From the NCBI GenBank assembly GCA_025453925.1, contig JALOPK010000016.1, forward strand, positions 1 through 21,094: a DNA stretch of 21,094 nt, read 5' to 3'. Positions 1,446 to 20,763 of this stretch are shown one piece after another (position 1 is the first letter of the stretch; every line of letters begins with the position of its first letter). Position numbers and translations under genes: made by a program. This DNA is from Candidatus Eiseniibacteriota bacterium. GTDB lineage: Bacteria; JAFGKV01. The notes below the pieces were generated by a model. That model saw only the letters and a program-made list of their open reading frames with translations. It ran no database searches and was not told where the DNA came from.

Positions 1446-2114
1446 CTATGGGTGCTCGGGGAGTGCGCCAGCGGGAGGAAGATCGGCCCTGATCAGATAG
1501 AAGTTGCGCTCGGCGGCCCGAGCGGGCGTCACCACCACCGAATCCGTCGCACTACCGATGCCCGGGTGCAGCACGCGGATCGCGCGGACACCGGGTGGTA
1601 TGCCGGCGACCAGGTAGCGCCCTGCTCCGTCGGTGGGGGCCCAACCCGCATGGTGTGTGACCAGGACATGGGCGATTTCGAGGTGGTGACCTGGCTGCGT
1701 ACACGTGAGGGTGAGCATACCCGGTTGATGCAGCGTCTTCGGAACCTCCAGGCCGGGGATGGTCAGAGCGATGCTGAAGACCCGGTCGCCCCGTTCTGAT
1801 GTCGCCTGCAGCCGGTGGATCGAGGAACTCCTGGAGATGATCCGCAGCACACCGCCCGGTTCGAGGACTTGGATCAGCGGAAACAAACCGTGCTCACCAA
1901 CGGTCAGTTGGCCCTCCGTGGCGGCCGCTCCGGAATCCGTGACGGCCGCTTCGGCCATCACCGCCGCGCCCGGAAGGGGAAGCCACGGCGCGCTGAGGGA
2001 GTCCCCCTGCACATAGACGACGCCCGTGACGCCGCCCGGGATCTCCTCGCCTGCGGCGGAGAGAACCGCACACGCCGCGACCAGCGCTCCCGCGAGACGG
2101 CAGCGGGGTCTCAT
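1446..2114 (-). CDS. Exported cupredoxin-like / carboxypeptidase-regulatory-domain protein
   Basis: A 222-aa protein with an N-terminal signal-like stretch (1-21, ending Ala-Ala-Gly), so probably periplasmic or secreted. Residues 27-150 look like the plastocyanin-like domain of proteins annotated as 'carboxypeptidase regulatory-like domain-containing'. His100 follows a Ser-rich strand, and Cys138 and His143/His144 lie in CTQPGHH, where related proteins have a C-x-x-H copper-ligand pair. No clear Met ligand is seen. Residues 155-205 (GWAPTDGAGRYLVAGIPPG onward) match the regulatory beta-sandwich pattern of a TD..GRY..GIPPG turn followed by a strand. The start overlaps the sulfatase stop as ATGA, so the two are probably translated together. 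Copper binding is inferred from residue pattern only; a structural role is equally possible. Confidence 0.6.
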   Translation of the reverse strand: MRPRCRLAGALVAACAVLSAAGEEIPGGVTGVVYVQGDSLSAPWLPLPGAAVMAEAAVTDSGAAATEGQLTVGEHGLFPLIQVLEPGGVLRIISRSSSIHRLQATSERGDRVFSIALTIPGLEVPKTLHQPGMLTLTCTQPGHHLEIAHVLVTHHAGWAPTDGAGRYLVAGIPPGVRAIRVLHPGIGSATDSVVVTPARAAERNFYLIRADLPPAGALPEHP

Positions 2115-3913
2115 GCCGGGCCCTCGTGCAGGTACCCGAGGGTCACCAGATGGCGCCGGGTGGCTTCGTCCATCGAGACGGCGGGAGCCTTACCGACTCT
2201 TGCACGATCCATCCAGTCCTGGAGTTCTGTGAGCATGCGGTGCGTCCGGGGATCAGCGCCGGAGCGGTTGTTCAGCTCCTCCGGATCAGCCATGAGATCA
2301 AAGAACATCGTGTCCACCTGCACGACCGAATAGGGAAGCCATGCACGCTGGAGCGACCAGAACGGCGTCCGCATGGTCGCCGCCCGGTGATCAGCGTGCT
2401 GGACAATCACAAGATCCCGCTCCCCCGGAGCACCCTCCAGGATCGTGCGGCCGAATGAGAACCCGCCAACTTCGGGGGATGGCGCGATGGAGAGGAGATC
2501 CGAGATCGTCGGGAGGAAATCGACCGTACTGATGACATCGTCGCGCCGCACGCCCTGGGGGACCAGCCCCGGCGCGTAGAAGATGAGCGGGATATGCACC
2601 TGCGGCCGGTAGAGCCCGATGTGATCGAAGTAGATGTCATGCTCGCCCATCGATTCACCGTGGTCGGCGGTAAGAACGATCAGCGTCTTGGATTCCAGGA
2701 GCCGGCCTCGCAGGGTGGCGAGCAGGCGCCCGATCTGCTGGTCGACGAACGCGACTTCCCCACGGTACATGGCTTCAGGGTAGGCGGGATTCGACATGCC
2801 CGCCAGCCACTGGGCGCCGACGGGACCGTGGTGAGTGAGATCGGAGCGGGTCGACAATGAGTCTGCCAAGCTCCTGGCGCCCGGCCTGACGGGGCCTTCG
2901 GGGGCGAACAGGCGCGCGAAGGAGTCGGGAGGAGTGTAGAGCATGTGGGGATCGAAGTAGTGGACCCACAGAAAGAAGGGGTGGATACCCTGGCCGCCCA
3001 GCCAGTCTGAGGCGCGCGCGGTGACCTCGTCGGCGCGCCATTCCCCTTCCGCGGGCGCCTGGAAGCTGTCGAAGCCCTGCGCCAGGCCGGAGAGATCCGG
3101 CGCGATGTGGCGTGCGGACACGACGGCAGCCGTCCGATAGCCATACCCCTTGAGCATCTCCGCCATGGTGGTGAAGCGCTGCTCCAGCGGGGTATTCAGG
3201 TTGTAGACGCGGTGTTCGCGGCCGTAGAGCCCGGTGAACAGAGTGGCCAGTGAGGGATTTGTCACGTTGAAGGCGGTGAAGGCCCGGCTGAACAGCGCGC
3301 CGCGCGCCGCGAGCCCGTCGATCACGGGAGTACGACCCAGGGAGTCGCCGTAGCAGCCCAGCCGGTCAGCCCGCAGCGCGTCGACGGTGATGAGTACCAG
3401 GCTGCTGGATCCCCGCGGTCTGACTGCAGAGGTCACCCGGGGAGCGACCCAGACCCCCCACCCTCCTGGCACGTCATCGGCAAGCGGCGAAAGAGACTCG
3501 AACCACAACTCAACGCTGGCACCGGCATAACGGGCCAGGTCGATGGTGACTTCGCCGAGGCGACGGCTCCTCGTGGTCTTCCGTGTCTCCCACAGCATCT
3601 CCGGGCTACGCCCCCTGGTCCGCACCGCCACCGAAAACCGCACGTCACCCCCGCCCGCAACCCCCTCGGGCAACATGGGTGCGAACCTGAGCCGGGCTCC
3701 AGGGGGCACCACCATGCGGGCCCGGAAGCCACCATCACCGGGCACCACGATGGCCGGGTGTGCGCCGGAGCCGAGACGGATAGTGGTGGGCTGTGCCCTC
3801 GCCCCGGAGGCAAGGGAATCGGAGAAGGTCGCCGCGAGGTCAAGAAACACCGGGTCGGACTGCCTCCCGCACCCCGCCGCCAGCACGGCGATCAGCAACA
3901 GCCCGCGGGTCAT
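2111..3913 (-). CDS. Sulfatase-fold lipoprotein with Thr at the formylglycine position
   Basis: A 600-aa alkaline-phosphatase-superfamily protein. A short hydrophobic start and lipobox LAAGC (lipidation at Cys15) indicate a lipoprotein. Residues 25-165 form a beta-rich domain, and the sulfatase domain runs from about 171 to 560. Metal-site motifs are LITVDALRADRLGCYG (174-189) and TADHGES (415-421), with His430 in YFDHIGLY. The nucleophile motif reads TNPSLATLFTG (218-228): where formylglycine sulfatases have C/S-x-P-S-R, this has Thr218-Asn-Pro-Ser-Leu. A Thr nucleophile is typical of superfamily phospho- and phosphoethanolamine transferases, so classic sulfate-ester hydrolysis is doubtful. 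It overlaps both neighbours by 4 bases, and glycosyltransferases lie directly upstream, so an envelope-glycan substrate is plausible but inferred. Confidence 0.85.
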   Translation of the reverse strand: MTRGLLLIAVLAAGCGRQSDPVFLDLAATFSDSLASGARAQPTTIRLGSGAHPAIVVPGDGGFRARMVVPPGARLRFAPMLPEGVAGGGDVRFSVAVRTRGRSPEMLWETRKTTRSRRLGEVTIDLARYAGASVELWFESLSPLADDVPGGWGVWVAPRVTSAVRPRGSSSLVLITVDALRADRLGCYGDSLGRTPVIDGLAARGALFSRAFTAFNVTNPSLATLFTGLYGREHRVYNLNTPLEQRFTTMAEMLKGYGYRTAAVVSARHIAPDLSGLAQGFDSFQAPAEGEWRADEVTARASDWLGGQGIHPFFLWVHYFDPHMLYTPPDSFARLFAPEGPVRPGARSLADSLSTRSDLTHHGPVGAQWLAGMSNPAYPEAMYRGEVAFVDQQIGRLLATLRGRLLESKTLIVLTADHGESMGEHDIYFDHIGLYRPQVHIPLIFYAPGLVPQGVRRDDVISTVDFLPTISDLLSIAPSPEVGGFSFGRTILEGAPGERDLVIVQHADHRAATMRTPFWSLQRAWLPYSVVQVDTMFFDLMADPEELNNRSGADPRTHRMLTELQDWMDRARVGKAPAVSMDEATRRHLVTLGYLHEGPA

Positions 3914-9342: not shown

Positions 9343-10283
9343 GGCGCAACCTCCTGGGGAACGAACAATGGCGGCCGTCTCCTTCGCTCGAGTACCCATC
9401 TGGGCAACTCGGGAACAAGGGCCGCATACGCACGGCCTACACCCTGGCGGGCCGCTGAGGACAGAGAAGAGCGCAGCCACGCGCGCTCCGAAGGCAAGAA
9501 GCGAGTCCGCAGGGCATCGAGGGTGTAGTGTTTCATCACGAACCTGAGCCTGTTCCGGTGGTACGAGAAGTGGTACCTCGGGCTATCCTTTCCCGTCGTC
9601 ACCGCCTCGAAGTGCCGGGCGGTGACCGAGAGTGCGACCAGCGACGGGATGCCGATCGCACGGGCGCGGATGCAGAAATCCGTCTCCTCAAAGTAGGCGG
9701 GGGCGAAGCGGACGTCAAAGCCGTCGAGCCGGTCGAACACCGGCGTGGGGACCACGAAGAGGGCCCCGGCGACGTAATCAGAGGTGACGAAACCCCGGGC
9801 TGGGAGCTCGTGCGCCTGGATTCCGCGATGGGGATGTTGGGTCAGCGCGTTGGGCAGCACGACCCCCCCGGCGTGCTGTATCGTGGTCTGCTCCGGTTCG
9901 AACAACAGCGCGCCGAGGATCGCATTGGGATGGATCCGAGCGCTCTCTCGGAGGCGGTCCAGGGCGTCCGGCGAGAGAAGGAGATCCTGGTTGAGAAAGA
10001 CGATCAGGTCAGCGGCCGCATCCGCCGCGCCGAGATTGCAGGCTCCCGCGAAGCCCAAAGCGCGCTGCCGGGCGATGACGGGCACGGCATCGCCGAAACG
10101 ATAGCCGATCGCCGCGGTCGTCCCGTCCCATGAACCGTTGTCCACCACCACGAGCCGGTCCCGGGCCCGGAGCTGCGGCAGGGTGCGATCGAGACACGCC
10201 AGTGTGAGTTCGCCACCATTGTGGGACGGGACTACGACCAGCAGGCTGGGGCGCGGGGCGGGGCGCGAATGGGGTGTGCTCAT
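9339..10283 (-). CDS. GT2 family glycosyltransferase
   Basis: A 314-aa GT2 transferase. Visible are [11 protein letters not shown] (14-24), [12 protein letters not shown] (45-56), GFAGACNLG (77-85), the DXD-like FLNQD (96-100; Asn-Gln-Asp instead of Asn-Asn-Asp) and [14 protein letters not shown] (198-211), in the pattern of rhamnosyltransferase-like enzymes. The C-terminal part is basic (LERRRRPP). It is more diverged from the two downstream GT2 domains than they are from each other. ATG at 10283 overlaps the kinase stop as ATGA, so it is probably translated by coupling to the kinase gene, and its own stop overlaps the next GTG. Substrates are unknown. Confidence 0.9.
9350..9355 (-). promoter_or_regulatory. 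Ribosome-binding site deciding the GTG start at 9342
   Basis: Minus strand reads AGGAGG, then 7 bases, then GTG. It lies inside the last codons of the upstream GT2 gene and settles the start of the coiled-coil glycosyltransferase against a longer open frame. Confidence 0.8.
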
Positions 10284-13200
10284 GCGGCATCGTCATCACG
10301 GAAACAGATCCGAAACCCGACCCACTGGCCGCACCATTCCTCAGGAAGCGCCTGCCGCGCCGCGGCGCGGCACTGGTCTGCGCTGGCGATCCACGAACCC
10401 CCTCGAACCACCCGAAGGCCGAGGAGACCTGCCTCGAGATCGCTGCACCACTCCGCGACTCCTCCCGCCAGATCGTGGATTCCAAATGGTGACACATCGT
10501 CCCGGAACACACCGACTGGCTCAAGGCCCGGAGGCCCGGGGCGGGAGTCGCGCATCTTGCATCGGCGGGGGTCGAACACCTCACCCCAGGGGTACGCGCG
10601 GCCCTGGCTCGCCCGCGCAGCCTTCTCCCATTCGGCTTCGGAGGGAAGCCTGAAGTGGCGATGCTCTTGAGCACCCAGCCACGTGCAGTACTGTGACGCG
10701 GCCTCCCAGCTCACGCCCACGGCGGGTATCTCCAGTTCGAACATGCCACGGTACCGGATGGTCGAATCGAGGCGGAGTCGCCCGGGGACCGGGAGGTAGC
10801 GCCCCTCCGTCGTACGCAGGGCCAATGCCTGGCCATCCTCGCCGCGCGGCAGCAGCCGCTCATCGAGCGGGTGGGGGAGGGAGTCCAGGAAATCACAGTA
10901 CTGACGGAAGGTGACAGGGAAACGGGCCATGAAGTAGTCACCCAGGAGCATGTCCCGCTCGAACCCGGCGCCGGGTGCCCGGGGATCACCGCCGAAGCGG
11001 AAGCTGCCGCCGGGAACGTGAACCATCTCTTCGCCCAGCCACGCCTGTCGGAACAGCTTAACGAATATCCGTTCCTCGCGCCCACAGACAAGATTGAGGG
11101 CCAGAGTCGAGACGGCATACCCCTGGGCCCGGATTTCGGCGAGCCACGGCCCGCTCTCGAGGCCTTCGAGGGTTCGGGGGGTCGACACCATGAGGGGTTC
11201 CCCGTGTCGCAGCATGACGCCCTCTTGATCGAGAAGACGCCACATGCATACCGATCCCCGGGGCTCGCTGTCGATGATCAGCGCGGCCCCCCTGCTCAGC
11301 CGCTCACGGAAGTCCTTGCCTCCGAAGAGGATGGCAAGATCCCTGTGGTGGCGGGCGCCAGCCCACTGCGCCCGCTCTTCCGCTCCTGACATGGCCATCC
11401 AGTGCAGCGAGGCCAGAGAGGATCGGGCCCGGGCATTGGAGGGATCCTTCACCAGGAGCCGGTGGCACGCCAACGCGGCCCGATCCCATGCCTGCACTTT
11501 CTGCGCGTTCAGCAGCGCCGCTTCCGCGGTGAGCTCATTGGCGCGAACGTACCCTTGCTCGGTTGACAAGGCAACGACCCCGGGCAGATCCCGGAGTGCA
11601 TCCCCTGCGGAATCAAGGCGCTCCACGGCACGGATGTAGGCCTGGCAGTCCTGCGCCACGCTTTGTTCCTCGGCACGGAGATGGGCGGTCTGGGCGGCCA
11701 GAAAGGCACGCTCCCGTTCGTCGAGCATACCGCTTTGCTCGAGGTCGCGCAGCAGTGCCAATCGTGGCCCCTCGATTCGGCTCTCGAACGTACGGGACAG
11801 GGCGATCTCGAGGCTGAGCGACTGCCGTAGGGCTCGCGCCTCCAGGAACTCGGGACCGAACAGCTCCAGGATCGGTGTTGCGAAGCATCGGGGGATCTCC
11901 AGCCCGGCGTGTCCGTCGATCCACACACCGCGAAGGAGACGCACCGCCACCAGTTTGCGGGCCAGCGCGATCGTCTCGTCGGCGGGAAGGCCGACGGTGG
12001 GGGCAACCTCGCTCATCGTCGCGCGCCCTCTCCCTGTCGCCAGCGCGGCGATGATGAGACGGGCCGGCCCCTGCCACCGCAGTGCAATGGCGCCAAGGGC
12101 ATCCCGTAGATGCGCCTTCCGCAGGGCGTCGAGACTCCAGGCCGAAGTATCCCGCCCCCGCTCGATCCACCGGAACGCCAGTTGGAGTTCGAATGGCAAC
12201 CAGCCGTCCTCGAAGAGCTCCGACGTGATCCGGCTGGCCAGTTCGGCGGCTACGCCTGCGCGCCCAAGGAGAGCAATCACCAGTTCAGGCTCGCTCGGAG
12301 GGAGTGCCAGGAGTGCCGGTGCCAGCCCCGCCCTCTGCGCGTCGGCCATGGCGTCGGCGCCGTGGGCGGTCTGGGTGACCAACACGAGCCGGCCGGATCG
12401 GCCGCGGGTCGCTAACTCATGGATTACCTCTCCGCACGCGTCATCCGCCCACGGCCAGCCCGGCGGACACGGCCAATGACGATGATCGTCCACGGCAACC
12501 ACCGTCCGCCCCAAGGACACGGCGGACTCGAGGGCTTCGCGCAGCCTCCCCGACGGCAGTGGCCGGGGGAGGTAGACGGTGCGCCATCCCAGGTCAGTGA
12601 TCGCGGGCAGCACACCGGCCGTGAGCAGGGAAGTACGGCCGGACGCATCGGGGCCATTGAGCAGGGTGAGCGGGCTCTCAAGCACCACACGAACGAGATC
12701 CCCTAAGACCCGGGACAAGGAGCGGAACTTGTCTTCGGATCCCGGTGTGTAGGGTCCCCCGCCCGGAGCGGGTGCGGGGGTGGCGTCAGATCGGGGACCC
12801 ATGGCGACCAAAGCGGCCTGGAAGTCCACCAAAGTCAGCGGCAACGTCGAGACCAGCGGCGGGATATCCCGCAGCGTGGTCCACCCGAGGTCGCGCTCGG
12901 GCACGATCGCCCTCAACGCGGCGGGACCCCGGCCGTCATCAGGGTGCACGCCCACGGACACGATCTCGCGCATTCCCCCCTCGCTCATGACGGCTCCCAG
13001 GTCCTCAGGAGAGGAGTACATCATAACGGTGTGCGCACGCTCGTGAACGGGTCCGCCGTCGCCGGCATCATGCGCGCTCACGAAATCCTGGGCCGTCTGA
13101 TCGTCGCGGTGAACGAGCACCAGCGGCCGCTGGGCGAGAAGAAGCCGGGAGAGGTCGGGATTGCGCCCGGGTTCGCGCACCAGGACGGCGGAACTTCGGC

Positions 13201-14080
13201 TCCAGAGGCTGGCGAGAAGGGCCTTGGCCTGGTCGATCCGCATCTGACGCCCGGCCGAACTCGCGACGTCACGGATGGCCCGGAACGTGCGCGGCCGCCC
13301 CTCCGGATCGGGCTCAAGCATTGAGTCCACCAGCGCTCCCACGCGAGGGTCGACGTCCGGTCGGACCGCAGCCACCTTTTGGATCGGCTGAAGCGAGAGC
13401 GGCAGCTCCTCCTCGCCGCACTTCTCGTGGCACAGGAGCCCGGTGAGAAGTTCGTACAAGGTCGCACCCAGGGAGAATACCTCGCTGGAGATCGTCAGGG
13501 GCCCTCCCGCGAGGACCTCGGGCGCCATGTAGGCGGGAGTGCCCGCCAAGGGGATATCTGCGCGGCTGAGAAGCATAGCCGTCCCAAAGTCCACCAGAGC
13601 CAGCGTTCCGTCCCCCCGCACCATGAAGTTGGACGGCTTGAGGTCGCCATGGAGCATACCCTTGGCGGTCGCGGCTTCCAGGGCAGGACACACTGCGTCC
13701 AGGAGATAGAGCGCCTGGAAGACCGAGCATGGCCCCCTGGCAGCAAGATCATCGGCCAGCGTTGGCCCTTCCACCAACTCCATGACAAGATAGGGTAACC
13801 CTCGCTCCCACCCCAGGTCATGGATTCGCGCAATCGCGGGGTGCACGAGGGCACGGCCGAACCGTGCTTCCCATGCGGCTTGATCCGGGTCGATTGCGCC
13901 GCCGAGGAACTTGAGCGCAACGGATAAGTCGAGTTTGATGTCGTGAGCCTGGAAAACGGTTCCGTAGCCGCCCTTCCCCAGTTGCGACACGATGCGGTAC
14001 CGCGTGCCGACGGTCTCCCCCGGACGGGGAAGCCGCGCAGCGGCGACGGGGACCGTCTGAGTGGAGCGAACGCGCTTCAC
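10280..14080 (-). CDS. Ser/Thr kinase - STAND-like - PEGA-like - FGE-like multidomain protein
   Basis: A 1266-aa signalling protein. The kinase domain (about 28-270) has the glycine loop GKGGYGTV (35-42), Lys57, a catalytic loop HGDLKPSN (144-151; Gly in place of the Arg of HRD), DFG (164-166) and APE (186-188), so it is probably active. Residues 450-640 resemble a STAND-type NTPase: [19 protein letters not shown] at 476-494 looks like its P-loop, but the Lys is Arg482, and VVAVDD (527-532) stands for Walker B. A helical region (about 740-920) follows, then a PEGA-like segment (933-1008). An FGE/SUMF1-like domain (1018-1260) contains [20 protein letters not shown] and RGGSW; only Cys1237 of the FGE catalytic Cys pair is present (Ala1232 replaces the other). 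No membrane helix is evident. The start is GTG with AGGAG 9 bases upstream. It leads the glycosyltransferase operon, so it may regulate glycan assembly. Confidence 0.88.
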
Positions 14081-14251: not shown

Positions 14252-14944
14252 TCAGCCGAGGGTGTGGCTCTGGCCTGGGGCGAGCAGCACGGGAGTCGCA
14301 AGGTTGGCACGAACCACTTCGTCCACCCAGGGTGCGATGTCCTGGGTAATCGCGTCGAAAGTATTGAAATGAATGGGTATGACCACATTCGGCCGAAGGA
14401 GCTTGAGCGCCCTCAGGGCATCGCGCGGCCCCATGGTGAAGCGATCGCCGATGGGCAGGATCGCGACATCGAGGCCCTCATCTCCGATGAGCGCCATGTC
14501 GCCGAACAGGCCCGTGTCTCCCGCGTGGTAGACGGTGGCGTTGGGGAGACGCAGGAGCAACCCCGCGGGGTTCCCGCCATACGAACCGTCGGGAAGGGAC
14601 GATCCATGAAGCGCCAGGGTGAGCTTGAGTGAACCCCATGGATAGCGCACCTCGCCGCCGAGATGCTGCGGACTCACGTTCTTGATCCCATGGTGCGATG
14701 AAAGGTAGGTCACGATTTCGTAGTTGGCGATCACCGTGGCACCCGTCCGGTGCGCAATCGCCGGTGTGTCCCCCAAGTGGTCCCCATGGCCATGAGTAAG
14801 GAGAATGTAGTCGGCGCCGACCTCATCGGCGCGAATGGTCGCTTGGGGGTTGCCGGTCAGAAACGGATCGATGAGCAGCCGGTGCGAATCCGTCTGAATG
14901 AGAAACGCAGCATGGCCAAGCCAGGTCAGTTGAGTGGGCATCAT
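14252..14944 (-). CDS. UPF0173-family metal-dependent hydrolase (MBL fold)
   Basis: A 230-aa cytoplasmic metallo-beta-lactamase-fold hydrolase of the UPF0173 type, close to the family's usual length. Metal ligands are visible: the HGHGDH motif (51-56), His113, Asp143 in YHAGDTG (139-145) and His192 in IPIHFNTF (189-196). The N-terminus LTWLGHAAFLI and IDPFLTGNP (25-33) are typical of the family. The true substrate of UPF0173 proteins is not established. It follows the last membrane gene by 13 bases and is probably the distal gene of that operon. Two adjacent ATG codons (14944, 14941) follow a G-rich ribosome-binding site; either may be used. Confidence 0.9.
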   Translation of the reverse strand: MMPTQLTWLGHAAFLIQTDSHRLLIDPFLTGNPQATIRADEVGADYILLTHGHGDHLGDTPAIAHRTGATVIANYEIVTYLSSHHGIKNVSPQHLGGEVRYPWGSLKLTLALHGSSLPDGSYGGNPAGLLLRLPNATVYHAGDTGLFGDMALIGDEGLDVAILPIGDRFTMGPRDALRALKLLRPNVVIPIHFNTFDAITQDIAPWVDEVVRANLATPVLLAPGQSHTLG

Positions 14945-14957
14945 CCCCCCTCAGTGT

Positions 14958-15584
14958 CTAGAGGAACCCTAGCCAATCTCCCAGCAGGAACTGGAACCTG
15001 CCGATCAAGAGCGTAATACGGCTCATGACCGTGTAGCCGAAGGATGCGCCGAACCCGATCATCAAGGTGACGATCCCGATCTTGGAGGCGGCGCCCAGCG
15101 GCCCACGATGTTCGGCGGAGAAGAAGAAGTAGAGCAAGACGGTGATGACACCGACGAAAAGCAGGAAGGACGAGACGCCGGCGCCGAGGGACCCCTGATC
15201 GAAAACGTTGATCATGGTGACCTGCATTTGCTTGATCACACGGGCCTGGATGGTGGAAGGCACGCTGTACCCCGCGCCCGCGGCAACGTAGAACGCCACC
15301 GGATACCGGCTGAGCCAGGACCTCTTGGGGAACAGCCGCGCGAACGCCATGAGGCCGAGCACGGCACAGCCTGCGAACAGGAGGTTCCCCTGTTTCACCA
15401 ACGGAACGTAGAGCTTCTTGAAGATCGCGGAGTAGGCATACTGGACCAGATAGTAGCCGGCCGATACCCCGACGAGCATATGCTCCATCACCTTGAACAT
15501 CGGGTTATCCTTCCAGAGGAAGGAGAACCCTGCCAAGGTCAGGATGGCGGCGAGCCAAACGCCGGGCTCAGGCGACAGGTGCAT
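14958..15584 (-). CDS. Six-helix membrane protein B' of the A-B-A'-B' cassette
   Basis: A 208-aa integral membrane protein I do not recognise from a named family. Hydrophobic segments are near 8-24, 34-54, 66-84, 94-112, 137-156 and 167-190. The C-terminus has IGFG (176-179), a polar-hydrophobic stretch, then IGRFQFLLG (194-202). The B protein encoded upstream has IGVG (184-187) followed by IGIEQSYLG (199-207), so both share the pattern IGxG ... IGxxQxxLG, at similar distance from the end and in proteins of almost equal length. ATG at 15584 is preferred to the longer frame because GGGAGG lies 4 bases upstream. It overlaps the end of the A' gene by 17 bases, suggesting coupling of A' and B'. 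Confidence 0.75.
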   Translation of the reverse strand: MHLSPEPGVWLAAILTLAGFSFLWKDNPMFKVMEHMLVGVSAGYYLVQYAYSAIFKKLYVPLVKQGNLLFAGCAVLGLMAFARLFPKRSWLSRYPVAFYVAAGAGYSVPSTIQARVIKQMQVTMINVFDQGSLGAGVSSFLLFVGVITVLLYFFFSAEHRGPLGAASKIGIVTLMIGFGASFGYTVMSRITLLIGRFQFLLGDWLGFL

Positions 15585-16419
15585 GGTTCCTCCCGGTCGA
15601 GGCGCCGGCCCTGCCGCGCCATTTGGTTGCTGCATACCCGATATTGCCGAGGACCACCATCATCACGATGAAGAGGTGCGAGATCGTCTGGGCGTCCATG
15701 CCGCGGATGCCGTCGCCGGGGGTCTGGATGAGGGTCTCATACTCCGCGGCGCCCTTGAGGCCGCCCAGAAACCCCACCAACTGGCCGGAGTCATGGTAGG
15801 GGTAGAGCCGCACAGCTTCCACCGCGGTAGCGCCCACGGCCACGGCGGCCCCGTACCGGTCGTGGGCATATTGGGCCCACAACTGCGGCATCGCGGTGGA
15901 CGACAGGCAGATGACCAGTCCCATGTTACGGTAGCTCTTGACGCCTCGCATCATGGGGAACGAGTCCAGCGCGGTGCCGTACTGATCGGTGGGGAACACC
16001 ATGGCCACGTCCTCGCCCATGCGGAGCATGGCGGCGGTGCCATCCGGGATGTAGCCGAGGAAAAGCCAGTTGCGGCCATACTCCATCCCCGCAATGGCGG
16101 CCTCCTGACGGAGCAGGTTCTCCGCCAGACCCACGCCTCCGGGGAGAAGGGTCATTCCCATGACGCGGGCGCGGCGCTGGAAGAGGTGCTTGAGGAACGC
16201 CGCCGCCATCGGATCGAGTTCGGCAATGGTCGCGGGCTCGTAGTCGAAGCTCATCAGAACGGCGCTGCTCTCCGGCATCTGCTCTATGAAACGGTGAATG
16301 TCGCGGACCTGGGATGTCACCTCGGTGCTGAACCCTATCGGCCACAGCAGGGGAATCACGATGGAGAAGGCGACTCCCCAGTAGATGATGGTGCGATCCA
16401 GCCCCTTCATGCCCGCCAC
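15568..16419 (-). CDS. Membrane-anchored alpha/beta protein A' of the A-B-A'-B' cassette
   Basis: A 283-aa protein of unknown function with an N-terminal membrane helix (11-30) and a C-terminal one (246-264) flanking a roughly 210-aa soluble domain. The domain follows a strand-helix rhythm and parallels the A protein at three points. ATIA and the helix after it (63-110) match A 187-235. GAAVAVGA...LYPYHDSGQLVG (190-217) matches GAIQIAGT...LPFFITSC-type sequence in A (291-320). The DAQ-plus-helix end (242-262) matches KAQ-plus-helix in A (338-358). It lacks the N-terminal beta domain of A. The start is GTG at 16419 with GGGGGAG 7 bases upstream and 4 bases after the B stop; ATG at 16410 is an alternative. 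The side of the membrane on which the soluble domain lies is not clear. Confidence 0.72.
   Translation of the reverse strand: MAGMKGLDRTIIYWGVAFSIVIPLLWPIGFSTEVTSQVRDIHRFIEQMPESSAVLMSFDYEPATIAELDPMAAAFLKHLFQRRARVMGMTLLPGGVGLAENLLRQEAAIAGMEYGRNWLFLGYIPDGTAAMLRMGEDVAMVFPTDQYGTALDSFPMMRGVKSYRNMGLVICLSSTAMPQLWAQYAHDRYGAAVAVGATAVEAVRLYPYHDSGQLVGFLGGLKGAAEYETLIQTPGDGIRGMDAQTISHLFIVMMVVLGNIGYAATKWRGRAGASTGRNHAPVA
15589..15594 (-). promoter_or_regulatory. Ribosome-binding site deciding the start at 15584
   Basis: Minus strand GGGAGG with 4 bases to ATG, located within the end of the A' gene. It supports a 208-aa B' product rather than the 17-codon longer frame. Confidence 0.75.
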
Positions 16420-16423
16420 GACG

Positions 16424-17056
16424 TCACTCCCCCTTGCCCAGGTACGACTGCTCGATGCCGATGATGATTTTCAGGGCCGTGGAGGTCATGCCGAGGCCGA
16501 CTCCGATGAGGATGCCCCGCTTGGCAGCGGTGTTCGGGTAGTCGAGGATCCATGTGGCAAGGTCAGCGAGCGATACGCCGCCAATGACCATGTTCTCACC
16601 CGCGGGAACCCGCCCGAGCATGACGATCACGCCCGACAAGAGCAGGAGCGTCGCCGTGACGTTCCGGGCTCTGAACGACCGGTAGGCGGCCGTGGCGATG
16701 AAGAAACCCAGCAAGCTGAACATGGTCGCCTGCCCAGGCACCTGCACGTTGGTGAAGAGCCAGGAATACGGACCCGTCTCGATGCCCCAGAAGATTGCGG
16801 CCAGCACCATGGCGAACAGGCTGGCGAGTGCGATGATGCTGTATCCGTATCCCTGTTTCCGGAAGCGCACCCGCAGGGCGTGATGACGGATGAGCGTCAT
16901 CGTTCCCACGATGAGGACACACCCGAACACCACCTGCTTCCAATCCAACACCATGTTGTAGAGCATCTGGAGTTGCGGGTGGGGGACGAAGAACTGGACG
17001 ATCATGAACACGCCCACCGTGAACGCCAGGATCATGGGAAGAGTTCGCCGGAACAT
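16424..17056 (-). CDS. Six-helix membrane protein B of the A-B-A'-B' cassette
   Basis: A 210-aa integral membrane protein of unknown function. Hydrophobic segments are near 6-24, 40-58, 71-92, 109-126, 131-149 and 180-201. A conspicuous ILDYPNTAAKRG segment (170-181) precedes the last helix, which ends in the IGVG ... IGIEQSYLG signature shared with B'. The open frame runs 61 codons further upstream, but that part is Arg/His-rich and lies inside the A gene. The ATG at 17056 overlaps the A stop as TGATG and begins with a normal membrane-protein N-terminus (MFRRTLPMILAF). The 1-base overlap implies translational coupling of A and B. Confidence 0.75.
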   Translation of the reverse strand: MFRRTLPMILAFTVGVFMIVQFFVPHPQLQMLYNMVLDWKQVVFGCVLIVGTMTLIRHHALRVRFRKQGYGYSIIALASLFAMVLAAIFWGIETGPYSWLFTNVQVPGQATMFSLLGFFIATAAYRSFRARNVTATLLLLSGVIVMLGRVPAGENMVIGGVSLADLATWILDYPNTAAKRGILIGVGLGMTSTALKIIIGIEQSYLGKGE

Positions 17057-18168
17057 CAGCGGAACGCCCCCGCGAACTGGGTGTCGCCCGCGATGGAAAG
17101 CAGTGTGCCGATCAGGATGAGCGCCAGGACGGCTGCCTTGGCAAAGTCCTGCGCCTTGAGGCTTCCCAGAAGCATCGGTTCGCGCGAGAGATACACGCTG
17201 GCGGCGTAGAGTTCTTCGCCGATGAGAGTGTAGTCGCACGACGTGATGAAAAACGGAAGCTGGGCGTCGGAGTCGGTGCCGGCGATCTGTATGGCGCCGG
17301 TAGTGTTGCCGGTCTCCGAGAGAATGAGCGACTCAGCGTAGAACATGCCCAGGAGGAAGTTTGCGGCAGGGCGCTCCCGGAGCATGATGCCGCTGACGGC
17401 CGCCGCGTAACCGAACTGGCTGTAGGTGACGTAGTAGATATCGTCCTGAATGTAGAGGTCGGGCCGGCCGATCTGATTGTAGGATTCCTTGACGATCTCC
17501 TGGGCAACCGCCATCACGATCGGGTCGCGGTTGGGGACCATGAGCCGCGTGCCGTACTCGCCGGCCTTCTTGGCCACCTGAGCCAGAATCTGCACCGACG
17601 CGATGGTGGCGACATCTTCCATGGAACTGATGCCGGGAATGTACATGATAGGCTTGCCCATCTCGGTGGCGCGGCCTATCGCCTCGTCGACGGCCTCCAG
17701 GCCGGCGATACGCCGGATGAACATCTGACGCCCCGACCGGGCATGATATGTAAACCACAGCAGGAGTCCCGTGAACAAGACCACCCCGAAGAAGACGGCG
17801 ATGCGGTCAGTCCGGAACCACTGGAGCGAGGGCGTACCCTCGGCCCGGGCAAGCACCGTGATAGTGGACGGGAATACCGCTTCGATCTCGTAGGTGTACC
17901 GCTGGCCGTTGGTCAACCGCTCGTCGAAGAAAGTGCTGTCCCCAAAAGCGAGATCCGCCCGTTTGCCCCGCGGTTCGCCGGAGCCGTCGGTTCGGAAGAG
18001 CCCCAACGAGATCACGGACTCGGCAACGGCCGAGCGCGCCACGGGCTCCCAACGCAGCGTCAGCGACCCGCCACCGTCATGGGGCGTGTCCACCACCTCG
18101 AAATCGATGGCAGCGGCGCCTGTGGCAACGAGAACGCTGAGGAAGACTGAGAATGCCGAATACGTCAT
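17056..18168 (-). CDS. Membrane protein A (DUF6754-like), first gene of the A-B-A'-B' cassette
   Basis: A 370-aa protein. Residues 1-20 look like a signal sequence. Residues 21-115 are a fibronectin-III-like beta domain (SLTLRWEP early, then RLTNGQRYTYEIEAV), probably outside the cytoplasm. A membrane helix spans 121-141, followed by a soluble alpha/beta domain (146-330) and a C-terminal helix (342-360). The stretch from RSGRQMFIRRIAGLEAVDEA through GKPIMYIPGI (145-180) recalls proteins I remember as labelled DUF6754; I could not verify this. Start choice: ATG at 18168 gives a proper signal sequence, with AGGA 9 bases upstream; the 59 codons above it are Pro/Arg-rich and fall in the divergent region. 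The function is unknown. It leads four membrane genes and a hydrolase. Confidence 0.72.
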   Translation of the reverse strand: MTYSAFSVFLSVLVATGAAAIDFEVVDTPHDGGGSLTLRWEPVARSAVAESVISLGLFRTDGSGEPRGKRADLAFGDSTFFDERLTNGQRYTYEIEAVFPSTITVLARAEGTPSLQWFRTDRIAVFFGVVLFTGLLLWFTYHARSGRQMFIRRIAGLEAVDEAIGRATEMGKPIMYIPGISSMEDVATIASVQILAQVAKKAGEYGTRLMVPNRDPIVMAVAQEIVKESYNQIGRPDLYIQDDIYYVTYSQFGYAAAVSGIMLRERPAANFLLGMFYAESLILSETGNTTGAIQIAGTDSDAQLPFFITSCDYTLIGEELYAASVYLSREPMLLGSLKAQDFAKAAVLALILIGTLLSIAGDTQFAGAFR

Positions 18169-18276
18169 TGGTAGCGGTCCTTGGGGCCTGTCCCGGGGAT
18201 CACACGAGAGGACAGCAAGGTAGGAAGGGCACTCCAGGCTGTCCAGGGAAACACCACGGTGCCTGGGCGAGATGGC

Positions 18277-18308
18277 GGCCCCGGGGTCAAGGTAGTTGAC
18301 AAGGGGCC
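18277..18308. promoter_or_regulatory. Nested inverted repeat around a TTGACA box (candidate operator)
   Basis: The outer arms are GGCCCC (18277-18282) and GGGGCC (18303-18308). The inner arms are GTCAA (18286-18290) and TTGAC (18296-18300) around a GGTAG loop. The inner right arm is part of the TTGACA box of the putative subtilase promoter, so a protein bound here would compete with RNA polymerase. No regulator is identified. Confidence 0.3.
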
Positions 18309-18374
18309 TCTGACGTCCAACACTCCCCTCTGCAGGCGGGCGCATAGGCCGCCGCTGTTGTGTAACGTCTCTCT

Positions 18375-18382
18375 AGGGAGGA
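18375..18382 (+). promoter_or_regulatory. Ribosome-binding site deciding the GTG start at 18388
   Basis: AGGGAGGA followed by 5 bases and GTG. It supports the 791-aa subtilase start, which immediately gives a signal peptide, against a frame that is open from 18181. Confidence 0.8.
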
Positions 18383-18387
18383 TTGCC

Positions 18388-20763
18388 GTGATTGCCCTTC
18401 GACTCGTCGCTCTCCTGCTCCTCGCCTCGGCTGAAGCGGGCTGGGGAGATCCCGATGACCATCTTGTCATGTTGAGTTCCTGGACCATTGACACCCGCGC
18501 CCCCGGCCCCCAGGTGCCCTCGGACCTGAGGGGGAGCATCGGGCCCGGCCTCACCTACGCCATCGTCAAGTTCGCCGCGCCGGCGGGTGACGCGCCGGCA
18601 ACCCTCCGCGCCCGCGGCGCCGAACCGGTCCGCTACCTTCCGCACCACGCGTGGGCGGTGCGGGGGAAGGAGGCGGACGTTCTCGGGTGTCGCGACCTGG
18701 CGGGGGTCACATGGGTCGGCCCGTACCATCCCGCGTACAAAATCGCGCCCTATGCCGGTGAGCAGGAGTTCCTGAATCCGGCGCGAAGTGCCGATCCCCT
18801 CCTGTGGCTGAAAATCCGCTTGTTCCCCGGGGAGCAGGGCAGCAACGTGGGAGACCAGGTCAGGTCGCTGGGCGCCAAGGTCGATGAGATCATCGCCAAG
18901 CCGTTGGGCGACATGCTGGTGGTCCGTGCGCCGAAGGACCTCCTCACCCCCCTCGCCCGTCTCGCCGCGGTTGAGTGGATCGAGGAGATCCCGGACTACT
19001 TCCTGCTCAACAACAGAACGCGGTGGGTCCTCCAGAGCAATCAGACCGATCAGACTCCCCTGTGGAACCGGGGGCTCCACGGCGAGGGCCAGATGATCGG
19101 CATCATGGACTCCGGCCTCGACTACAACTCCTGCTTCTTCCGTGATCCCGAGGGTGATCCCATCGGCTCGAACCATAGGAAGGTGCAGGCCTACCGGCTC
19201 ACGGGCGGGGCAGCGTATGACGGCTGTGACACGGGCCATGGCACGCATGTAATGGGGACGGTCCTCGGAGAGGACCTCTTCGGCTCGAACAGCGCCTACA
19301 ACGGCCTGGCCTACAAGGCCCGGTGCACGTTTCAGGACGTGGGCCAGGACGACTCGTGGTCATGCAGCACCGGTTCCGTGAGCATCCCCGGCGACCTCGA
19401 GCCCTCCTATCAGAACTCTCTCAATGATGGGGCATACCTGCACACCAACAGCTGGGGATCGAGCTCGAACACGTATGACTCGATGGCGCAGGACGTCGAC
19501 AACTTCATGTGGAACCACAAGAACTTCCTCATCTTCTTCGCCATGGGAAACTCGGGGCCGGGCTCCGGCACCATCGGCAGCCCCGCGACGGCGAAGAACT
19601 GCGTCTCGGTCGGCGCCACCCAGCAGGCACCAACCCAGAACTCCATGGCCTCCTACTCCAGCAGGGGGCCGGCGTCCGACCAGCGGCGCAAACCGACGAT
19701 CGTGGCCCCGGGGGGAGACACGGGCAACTATATCAACTCCGCCAACAACCACACGGGCAATCCGCCTGCCCAGACCTGCAATGTGCAGGGCAATCCGTTC
19801 ATGGGAACGAGCATGGCCACCCCCGCCTCGGCGGCATCGGGACTGCTGGTGCGTCAGTACTTCACCCAGGGGTACTACCCCACCGGTGCGCCCGTGCCCG
19901 GGAATGCCCTTGTGCCGTCGGCAGCATTGATCAAGGCCATGCTGGTCAACTCCGGCACCACCATCGGTGGCGCCTTCCCTGACAACAACCAGGGATGGGG
20001 AAGGATTCTCCTGGACGATGCCCTGTTCTTCCCGGGCGATCTCCGCCAAATGGCGGTGGTTGACGAGACTGCGGGGATCAGCACCGGACAGACTCGTTCC
20101 TACCAGTATCAGGCGGGCGCCTCCCAGCCCCTGGAGATCGTCGTGGTGTGGACCGACTATCCCGCCTCCACCGGAGCGAGCATTGCCCTGGTGAACGACC
20201 TCGATCTGGAAGTGTCGACGCCGTCGGGTACGTTCCTGGGGAACGTCTATGCCAACGGTCAATCCTGCGCAGGGGGAAGCGCGGATCGGAGGAACGTGGT
20301 CGAGTGCGCCCAGTTCAACTCTCCGGTGGCGGGCAGCTATACGGTCACGGTGCGTGCGTACACTACCCCCCACGGCCCCCAGCCGTTCGCGGTGGTCGTC
20401 ACCGGCGATCTCGGCGGAGGCTCCTCGGACACCCAGCCCCCGGGGTCCATCGGCGACCTCCAGATCACGCCGGGGACGGTGGGGGGGATCCGCCTGGTCT
20501 GGAGCAACCCCGGGGACAACGTGGGCGTAACGAGGTTCGAGATCTACCGATCCCCATCGAGCTTCTTCATCCCCACGCTGGGCAGCGAGTACCACACGCT
20601 CACGGGTAACCCGCCTGCGTGCGTCTGGAACGACGCATCCGCGGGAACCACCCCCGGCGAGCAGCTCTTCTATCGCATCATCGCGGGGGACGCGGCGGGG
20701 AACCGATCGGCGCCTTCGAACACCGCGGGCGAGACGGTGTGGGAACTCGAGGACGCGCGATAG
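18388..20763 (+). CDS. Secreted S8 (subtilisin-family) serine protease
   Basis: A 791-aa exported protease. The signal peptide (1-17, ending AEA) is followed by an approximately 200-aa pro-region. The subtilase domain has the complete triad: Asp241 in IGIMDSGLD, His284 in DTGHGTHVMGT and Ser475 in FMGTSMATPASAA; Asn388 in AMGNSGPG is the oxyanion-hole residue. A beta-sandwich with NDLDLEV (603-609) and a SYTVTVRAY strand (650-658) follows, as in many bacterial subtilases. A fibronectin-III-like domain (681-785) starts with DTQPPGSIGDLQI. No sorting or anchoring signal is visible at the C-terminus. The start is GTG, set by its ribosome-binding site. It is divergent from the membrane cassette and may form an operon with the next gene, 8 bases on. 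Secreted nutrient or processing protease is the likely role; the substrate is unknown. Confidence 0.93.
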   Translation: MIALRLVALLLLASAEAGWGDPDDHLVMLSSWTIDTRAPGPQVPSDLRGSIGPGLTYAIVKFAAPAGDAPATLRARGAEPVRYLPHHAWAVRGKEADVLGCRDLAGVTWVGPYHPAYKIAPYAGEQEFLNPARSADPLLWLKIRLFPGEQGSNVGDQVRSLGAKVDEIIAKPLGDMLVVRAPKDLLTPLARLAAVEWIEEIPDYFLLNNRTRWVLQSNQTDQTPLWNRGLHGEGQMIGIMDSGLDYNSCFFRDPEGDPIGSNHRKVQAYRLTGGAAYDGCDTGHGTHVMGTVLGEDLFGSNSAYNGLAYKARCTFQDVGQDDSWSCSTGSVSIPGDLEPSYQNSLNDGAYLHTNSWGSSSNTYDSMAQDVDNFMWNHKNFLIFFAMGNSGPGSGTIGSPATAKNCVSVGATQQAPTQNSMASYSSRGPASDQRRKPTIVAPGGDTGNYINSANNHTGNPPAQTCNVQGNPFMGTSMATPASAASGLLVRQYFTQGYYPTGAPVPGNALVPSAALIKAMLVNSGTTIGGAFPDNNQGWGRILLDDALFFPGDLRQMAVVDETAGISTGQTRSYQYQAGASQPLEIVVVWTDYPASTGASIALVNDLDLEVSTPSGTFLGNVYANGQSCAGGSADRRNVVECAQFNSPVAGSYTVTVRAYTTPHGPQPFAVVVTGDLGGGSSDTQPPGSIGDLQITPGTVGGIRLVWSNPGDNVGVTRFEIYRSPSSFFIPTLGSEYHTLTGNPPACVWNDASAGTTPGEQLFYRIIAGDAAGNRSAPSNTAGETVWELEDAR

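Follow-up and report, generated by a model that had tools for sequence, protein, structure and literature searches.

Among the closest described relatives of the locus examined here is DUF6754 (PF20539), a Pfam family with no assigned function; in the literature searched, no paper was found that mentions the Pfam name, and nothing on its function. Here we analyse a 21,094-nucleotide stretch of DNA (positions 1 to 21,094 of contig JALOPK010000016.1, assembly GCA_025453925.1, Candidatus Eiseniibacteriota bacterium; hereafter the window) that carries a DUF6754 gene at the head of a cassette of four membrane-protein genes, designated A, B, A' and B'. While A encodes a known domain of unknown function, the four-gene system as a whole appears to be undescribed: no named system in NCBIfam, PADLOC or PHROGs matches the cassette, in agreement with the initial annotation of the window, which knew of none with this layout. 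We propose that A-B-A'-B' encodes a single hetero-oligomeric complex of the inner membrane, bearing Rossmann-like domains on either face, probably engaged in transport or trans-membrane coupling and assisted by a MutL-type protein, a reading that we consider probable yet far from secure.

All four open reading frames were found at the positions and with the lengths first annotated (Table 1), to which the strand is added here. The tight coupling reported at that stage was reproduced throughout: the stop codon of A and the start codon of B have one base in common (TGATG at 17058-17054), 4 bases separate B from the GTG start codon of A', and A' overlaps B' by 17 bases (15568-15584).

Table 1. Coordinates of the cassette genes and of the adjoining hydrolase gene in the window.
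Feature	Position	Strand	Basis
Gene A (DUF6754 protein, 370 aa)	17056-18168	minus	ORF (open reading frame) and Pfam PF20539
Gene B (210 aa, six transmembrane helices)	16424-17056	minus	ORF and hydropathy; without known family
Gene A' (283 aa, GTG start)	15568-16419	minus	ORF and AlphaFold2; without known family
Gene B' (208 aa, six or seven transmembrane helices)	14958-15584	minus	ORF and hydropathy; without Pfam family
Metal-dependent hydrolase, metallo-beta-lactamase fold, PRK00685 type	14252-14944	minus	NCBIfam NF001911, E 7.9e-81

Gene order was surveyed downstream of DUF6754 in 118 non-redundant loci, each offering 2.3 kb or more of sequence there. B, A' and B' follow A in this order and on the same strand in 105 of them, with median gaps of 6, -4 and -4 bases, so that the conservation of order across genomes put forward initially as a check is borne out; the arrangement is far beyond chance. 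Relatives of A occur in WOR-3/Stahlbacteria, Fermentibacteria, Sumerlaeota, CSSED10-310 and the phylum of genome G010, the closest named one (78% identity) belonging to a Candidatus Fermentibacteria metagenome-assembled genome. DUF6754 was detected in 140 of 147 genomes of the WOR-3 phylum, all 132 of the phylum of G010, 12 of 40 of the Sumerlaeota phylum, 6 of 8 of the CSSED10-310 phylum and all three of the window's own phylum, with one to seven copies per genome in these five phyla, and in none of 14 well-known control genomes. Co-occurrence of the genes is clear from the 105 loci and also from the Sumerlaeota phylum, in which A' and B' are each confined to, and present in all of, the 12 of 40 genomes with A. 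Furthermore, the distance between two cassettes measured on one of the four genes correlates with that measured on another (r 0.76-0.89), as expected for proteins that are inherited together. Because the order is strict, the genes are coupled and co-inherited, and their distances are correlated, one complex is the best account of the cassette; we infer that the four proteins associate physically, and the heteromeric membrane complex suggested at the outset is very likely.

A diverged Fermentibacteria cassette lineage (L073, L079, L086), with DUF6754 scores of 74-109 bits, retains the A-B-A'-B' order. DUF6754 genes that lack the other three are located at L071 9211-10380, L080 9146-10321 and L100 9927-11126, and in two Fermentibacteria genomes a lone DUF6754 gene comes after two membrane proteins, one of which gives a weak PMT_2 glycosyltransferase match.

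Head-to-tail arrays of two or three complete cassettes are present in several genomes. In three-cassette arrays, proteins at the same position in different genomes are 64-65% (A) and 59-63% (A') alike, compared with 46-54% and 32-39%, respectively, for neighbours within one array. Since same-position cassettes are closer than array neighbours, the four-gene unit was duplicated whole, long ago, and the copies kept their identities. By these sequence comparisons array positions are orthologous across genomes, and whole-cassette duplication would have yielded position-specific isoforms. The draft genome from which the window derives (3.9 Mb, 502 contigs) holds four DUF6754 genes, namely three complete cassettes and one lone A.

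Gene A is a member of DUF6754 by hmmscan against Pfam (E 5.9e-119; 396 bits against a gathering score of 27), the match covering residues 115-365 and positions 3-253 of the 257-position model. Its AlphaFold2 model (pLDDT 82.9) agrees with the helix-alpha/beta-helix layout first described, which had, however, overlooked a signal peptide and a periplasmic fibronectin type III (Fn3) domain at residues ~19-116; these are followed by a transmembrane helix (120-144), a six-strand, predicted Rossmann-like alpha/beta domain (~157-328), and a C-terminal transmembrane helix (331-359). The Fn3 beta-sandwich is supported by VIA matches (Z 10-11, ~88 residues, 2.0-2.4 Å) and by a weak sequence match to the Fn3-like 3mpc_A. 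Fn3 matches took up the list of the structure search with A, and the alpha/beta domain is therefore described from the model only. In two loci (L201 9815-11929; L202) A proteins of 704-707 aa have an enlarged N-terminal region that holds one or, more probably, several Fn3 domains. An apparent A-SppA fusion in L170 is not credible, as the join spans a masked stretch of N.

The model of A' (pLDDT 88.2, pTM 0.82) likewise conforms to the helix-alpha/beta-helix layout given initially, with a transmembrane helix, a six-strand alpha/beta domain (~36-231), and a C-terminal transmembrane helix (236-273) in which Q244, H248 and N259 are conserved. The domain is Rossmann-like. Its best VIA match, the epsilon subunit of carbon monoxide dehydrogenase (CODH; 9c0r_C, Z 9.6, 145 residues, 3.2 Å), is closely trailed by many unrelated Rossmann-like proteins (Z 7.5-8.7), and no function can therefore be assigned from it. 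Neither A' nor 27 members of its family are matched by PF20539 at E 0.5, no Pfam or NCBIfam family exceeds the cut-off for B, A' or B', and no sequence relatives of these three proteins were found among solved structures.

Membrane sidedness was predicted from the positive-charge bias flanking the helices, counted over relatives of each protein. The alpha/beta domain of A is placed inside in 102 of 104 relatives with none opposing, while that of A' is placed outside in 92 of 96. B is predicted to have both termini inside (93 of 95), and for B' an outside N-terminus is weakly preferred (65 relatives for, 12 against and 16 tied out of 93). By this prediction each membrane face bears a domain of this kind, the cytosolic one supplied by A and the periplasmic one by A'.

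Whether these two domains share a common origin was addressed with phmmer, hmmsearch and hhalign, using 25-100 sequences per family for A/A' and for B/B'. Plain profile comparison found no similarity between A and A' (hhalign probability <1%; hmmsearch E 0.05 or worse), yet the order of strands and helices is the same in the two AlphaFold2 models, and a profile alignment that includes secondary structure is collinear through the whole domain and the C-terminal helix, scoring above all 300 of 300 permutations of beta-alpha units. Unit permutation is the control to rely on, given that column shuffling destroys local patterns. When the helix of A' was removed, the observed score was reached by 44 of 200 permutations at half structure weight and by 3 of 200 at full weight; in this run A was cut only at residue 358 and retained its helix. 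The relationship of A to A' claimed initially is therefore partly supported, by topology and by the permutation control but not by hhalign, and it weakens without the C-terminal helix. It is possible that A and A' are of separate descent, the cassette consisting of four unrelated membrane proteins in one complex and the shared topology having arisen by convergence. This would agree with the failure of plain profile comparison and with A' matching many Rossmann-like proteins about equally; however, every permutation scored lower than the real alignment, and collinear matches extend beyond the generic fold to L[IL]GxxxxAA and, in the C-terminal helix that follows, to AQ...G; we regard convergence as somewhat unlikely. 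A common origin of A and A' is likely but not proven, the profile support being suggestive.

Results for B and B' were different. Hydropathy gives six helices for B, as had been stated, and six or seven for B', for which six had been claimed as well. B has no match over the cut-off in Pfam, NCBIfam, PHROGs or PADLOC. At the level of sequence, B and B' show no detectable relationship: hhalign probability is <1%, hmmsearch returns nothing, and the profile score lies inside the shuffled range. The motif IGxxQxxLG, on which their kinship had been based, is indeed present in the window (IGIEQSYLG and IGRFQFLLG), but the family consensus reads IGIERxYLG for B and IGRxxFLL for B', with the Q conserved in neither, and the motif was rejected as a signature of the two families. 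The initial annotation had viewed the cassette as the product of a tandem duplication in which an ancestral A-B pair gave rise to A-B and A'-B', with both pairs homologous. The alternation of types along the cassette, the identical strand-helix order of A and A' with an alignment above all permutations, and the predicted N-in and N-out placements of B and B', which would suit an inverted pair, speak for such an event, but with nothing above shuffled controls for B/B', no motif kept within families, and an A/A' signal that falls without the C-terminal helix, we consider it unlikely. A two-gene tandem duplication is thus not shown; it is the four-gene unit that duplicates whole.

In the complex that we favour, B, B' and the helices of A and A' would form the membrane core. 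A would hold its Fn3 domain in the periplasm and its Rossmann-like domain in the cytosol, and A' would add a second Rossmann-like domain in the periplasm, alike in topology and probably homologous to that of A, though diverged. Transport or coupling is favoured because domains of a ligand-binding type face opposite compartments around ~12-13 further helices, with a candidate ATPase at hand; most likely, the complex would move or couple something across the membrane using a ligand-binding Rossmann-like domain on each face, although the activity is speculative. Assistance or regulation may come from an ASKHA ATPase of the MutL type and from a barrel-sandwich adaptor, both encoded near many cassettes. 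A bolder version, in which homologous ligand-binding Rossmann-like domains on opposite faces of a B/B' core couple the ligand state of the periplasm to the cytosolic MutL-type ATPase, would constitute a novel class of machine, close to universal in several candidate phyla, but we hold it doubtful.

The candidate partner is a MutL-type protein of ~600 aa (PF13941, E 1.2e-127). Its gene, like A' and B', is found in the Sumerlaeota phylum in all of the 12 of 40 genomes that have A and in no others; the value for each such identity of sets, 1/C(40,12) = 1.8e-10, overstates the case in that genomes are not independent. In the WOR-3 phylum MutL is present in 137 of 147 genomes and is also missing from 3 of the 7 genomes that lack A (p 0.007, with the same non-independence). 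Of 67 long loci, 20 have a MutL or barrel-sandwich gene in one stretch with the cassette, and these come from WOR-3, Sumerlaeota, CSSED10-310 and the phylum of G010. The ~600 aa MutL is usually encoded once per genome whatever the number of cassettes, DUF6754 reaching seven copies. Partnership of MutL with the cassette is a good lead, not proof.

Several MutL genes have other surroundings. In L211 (G000:C314, 2355-10876), L214-L220, L222, L223, L226 and L228, the MutL gene, together with one for a small conserved protein, lies downstream of a glycine-cleavage operon (GcvT, GcvH and GcvP by Pfam); in the Fermentibacteria loci of this type, the barrel-sandwich gene also follows, and a lipoate-ligase-like gene accompanies the group.

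The following points weigh against the proposed complex, its activity or its assistance by MutL: i) no catalytic or transport motif was recognised; ii) the evidence for physical association of the four proteins is indirect; iii) Rossmann topology by itself is widespread; iv) stand-alone A genes exist (L071, L074, L080, L100), and A is therefore usable without the other three; v) four WOR-3-phylum genomes without DUF6754 possess MutL; and vi) MutL is often far from cassettes, behind glycine-cleavage genes in Fermentibacteria and many WOR-3 genomes, and its co-occurrence with the cassette may reflect shared clade ancestry.

The barrel-sandwich gene (~375 aa) raises the question of a redox-linked ion pump related to Rnf/Nqr or to transhydrogenase, in which this protein would be an RnfC_N-like adaptor and the Rossmann-like domains would bind nicotinamide. 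The protein matches RnfC_N weakly (Pfam E 1.8e-4; NCBIfam rnfC E 1.6e-4), and Foldseek finds a fold-level match of A' to domain III of pyridine nucleotide transhydrogenase (E 8e-3). Nevertheless, the rnfC score is 20.4 bits against a cut-off of 245.95, and plain GcvH matches RnfC_N equally weakly, so that the adaptor match shows only a barrel-sandwich domain; moreover, A', B and B' have no conserved cysteine clusters, and a periplasmic site is unsuited to NAD(P)H binding. We consider such a pump very improbable.

Some lineages have further cassette neighbours of the Exb/Ton or Tol type. Behind the cassette in several Stahlbacteria/WOR-3 loci (L010 5912-10595; L025 2779-8215; L190) lie genes for DUF4388, two family-less proteins, two small transmembrane proteins, ExbB, two ExbD and TonB. 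In the phylum of G010 (L168, L181, L164, L167, L175) the cassette is divergent from MutL and its neighbours, which include a secreted-looking protein of ~259 aa, the barrel-sandwich gene, an ExbB/TolQ-like gene and a Tol-like cluster ending in TolB. The main rival to our proposal builds on these neighbourhoods: the cassette would form an envelope, adhesion or motility scaffold, with the Fn3 domain of A contacting the periplasm or surface and ExbB/ExbD/TonB-like proteins supplying the energy. The much longer ectodomain of the 704-707 aa A proteins would suit such a role, as would the ExbB/ExbD/TonB genes and the Tol-like cluster adjoining the MutL and barrel-sandwich genes. These neighbourhoods are, however, restricted to some lineages, A' has no Fn3 domain, and its C-terminal helix carries conserved polar residues, and the scaffold seems improbable to us. 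Two further candidates were dismissed, namely i) an anti-phage defence system, with no PADLOC-DB match for A, B or B' and one weak match for A' (E 0.049), and ii) a viral origin, with no relative in IMG/VR and no PHROGs match.

The metal-dependent hydrolase gene starts 13 bases past B'. It also lies 3' of the cassette in two Fermentibacteria records (L005, L006) and probably does not belong to the core system, because it is absent behind the cassette in other phyla. Elsewhere in the window, a subtilase (Peptidase_S8) gene (18181-20763, plus strand) is divergent from the cassette, and a minus-strand gene (10280-14080) encodes a protein kinase that is joined to a possible STAND-type segment and ends in an FGE-sulfatase domain, its position downstream of the cassette being kept in Fermentibacteria. 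A sulfatase-family gene (2111-3913, minus strand; PF00884, E 8.3e-42) lies in the same strand run as glycosyltransferase-like genes.

Given its presence in nearly all genomes of some phyla and in up to seven copies, the cassette is presumably important to the cells that carry it. With its fixed order, predicted folds and sidedness, and a candidate ATPase partner, it offers a defined target in uncultured lineages, and an inside/outside pair of related domains, if true, would be an unusual membrane architecture. Its apparent novelty rests on the lack of a match to known systems, and B or B' may hold a known fold.

As regards ATP-binding cassette (ABC) transporters, no ATPase family in Pfam or NCBIfam matches any of the four proteins, and no ABC ATPase was recognised among recurrent neighbours. 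The RnfC/NqrA subunits resemble the adaptor in its N-terminal domain, but the adaptor falls far under the family cut-offs, no RnfC-type subunit over the cut-off lies beside the cassette, and no other Rnf subunit was recognised alongside. The cassette-linked ~600 aa protein is a member of the GlmL/MutL family (PF13941) that co-occurs with the cassette, but it scores 234 bits against the NCBIfam cut-off of 475 for GlmL, the methylaspartate mutase accessory protein, and no mutase gene was recognised next to it. The epsilon subunit of CODH/acetyl-CoA synthase (9c0r_C) and other Rossmann-like domains share the parallel alpha/beta fold of A'; however, identity is 8-9%, with no sequence similarity above background, and these proteins are soluble enzymes, unlike A' with its two anchoring helices and predicted periplasmic location. 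Fibronectin type III domains are represented by residues 19-116 of A, but this is a generic module and no pointer to function. As for DUF6754, while the family spans only the membrane-anchored alpha/beta part, without the Fn3 ectodomain, and B, A' and B' belong to no Pfam family, A is a clear member over almost the whole model.

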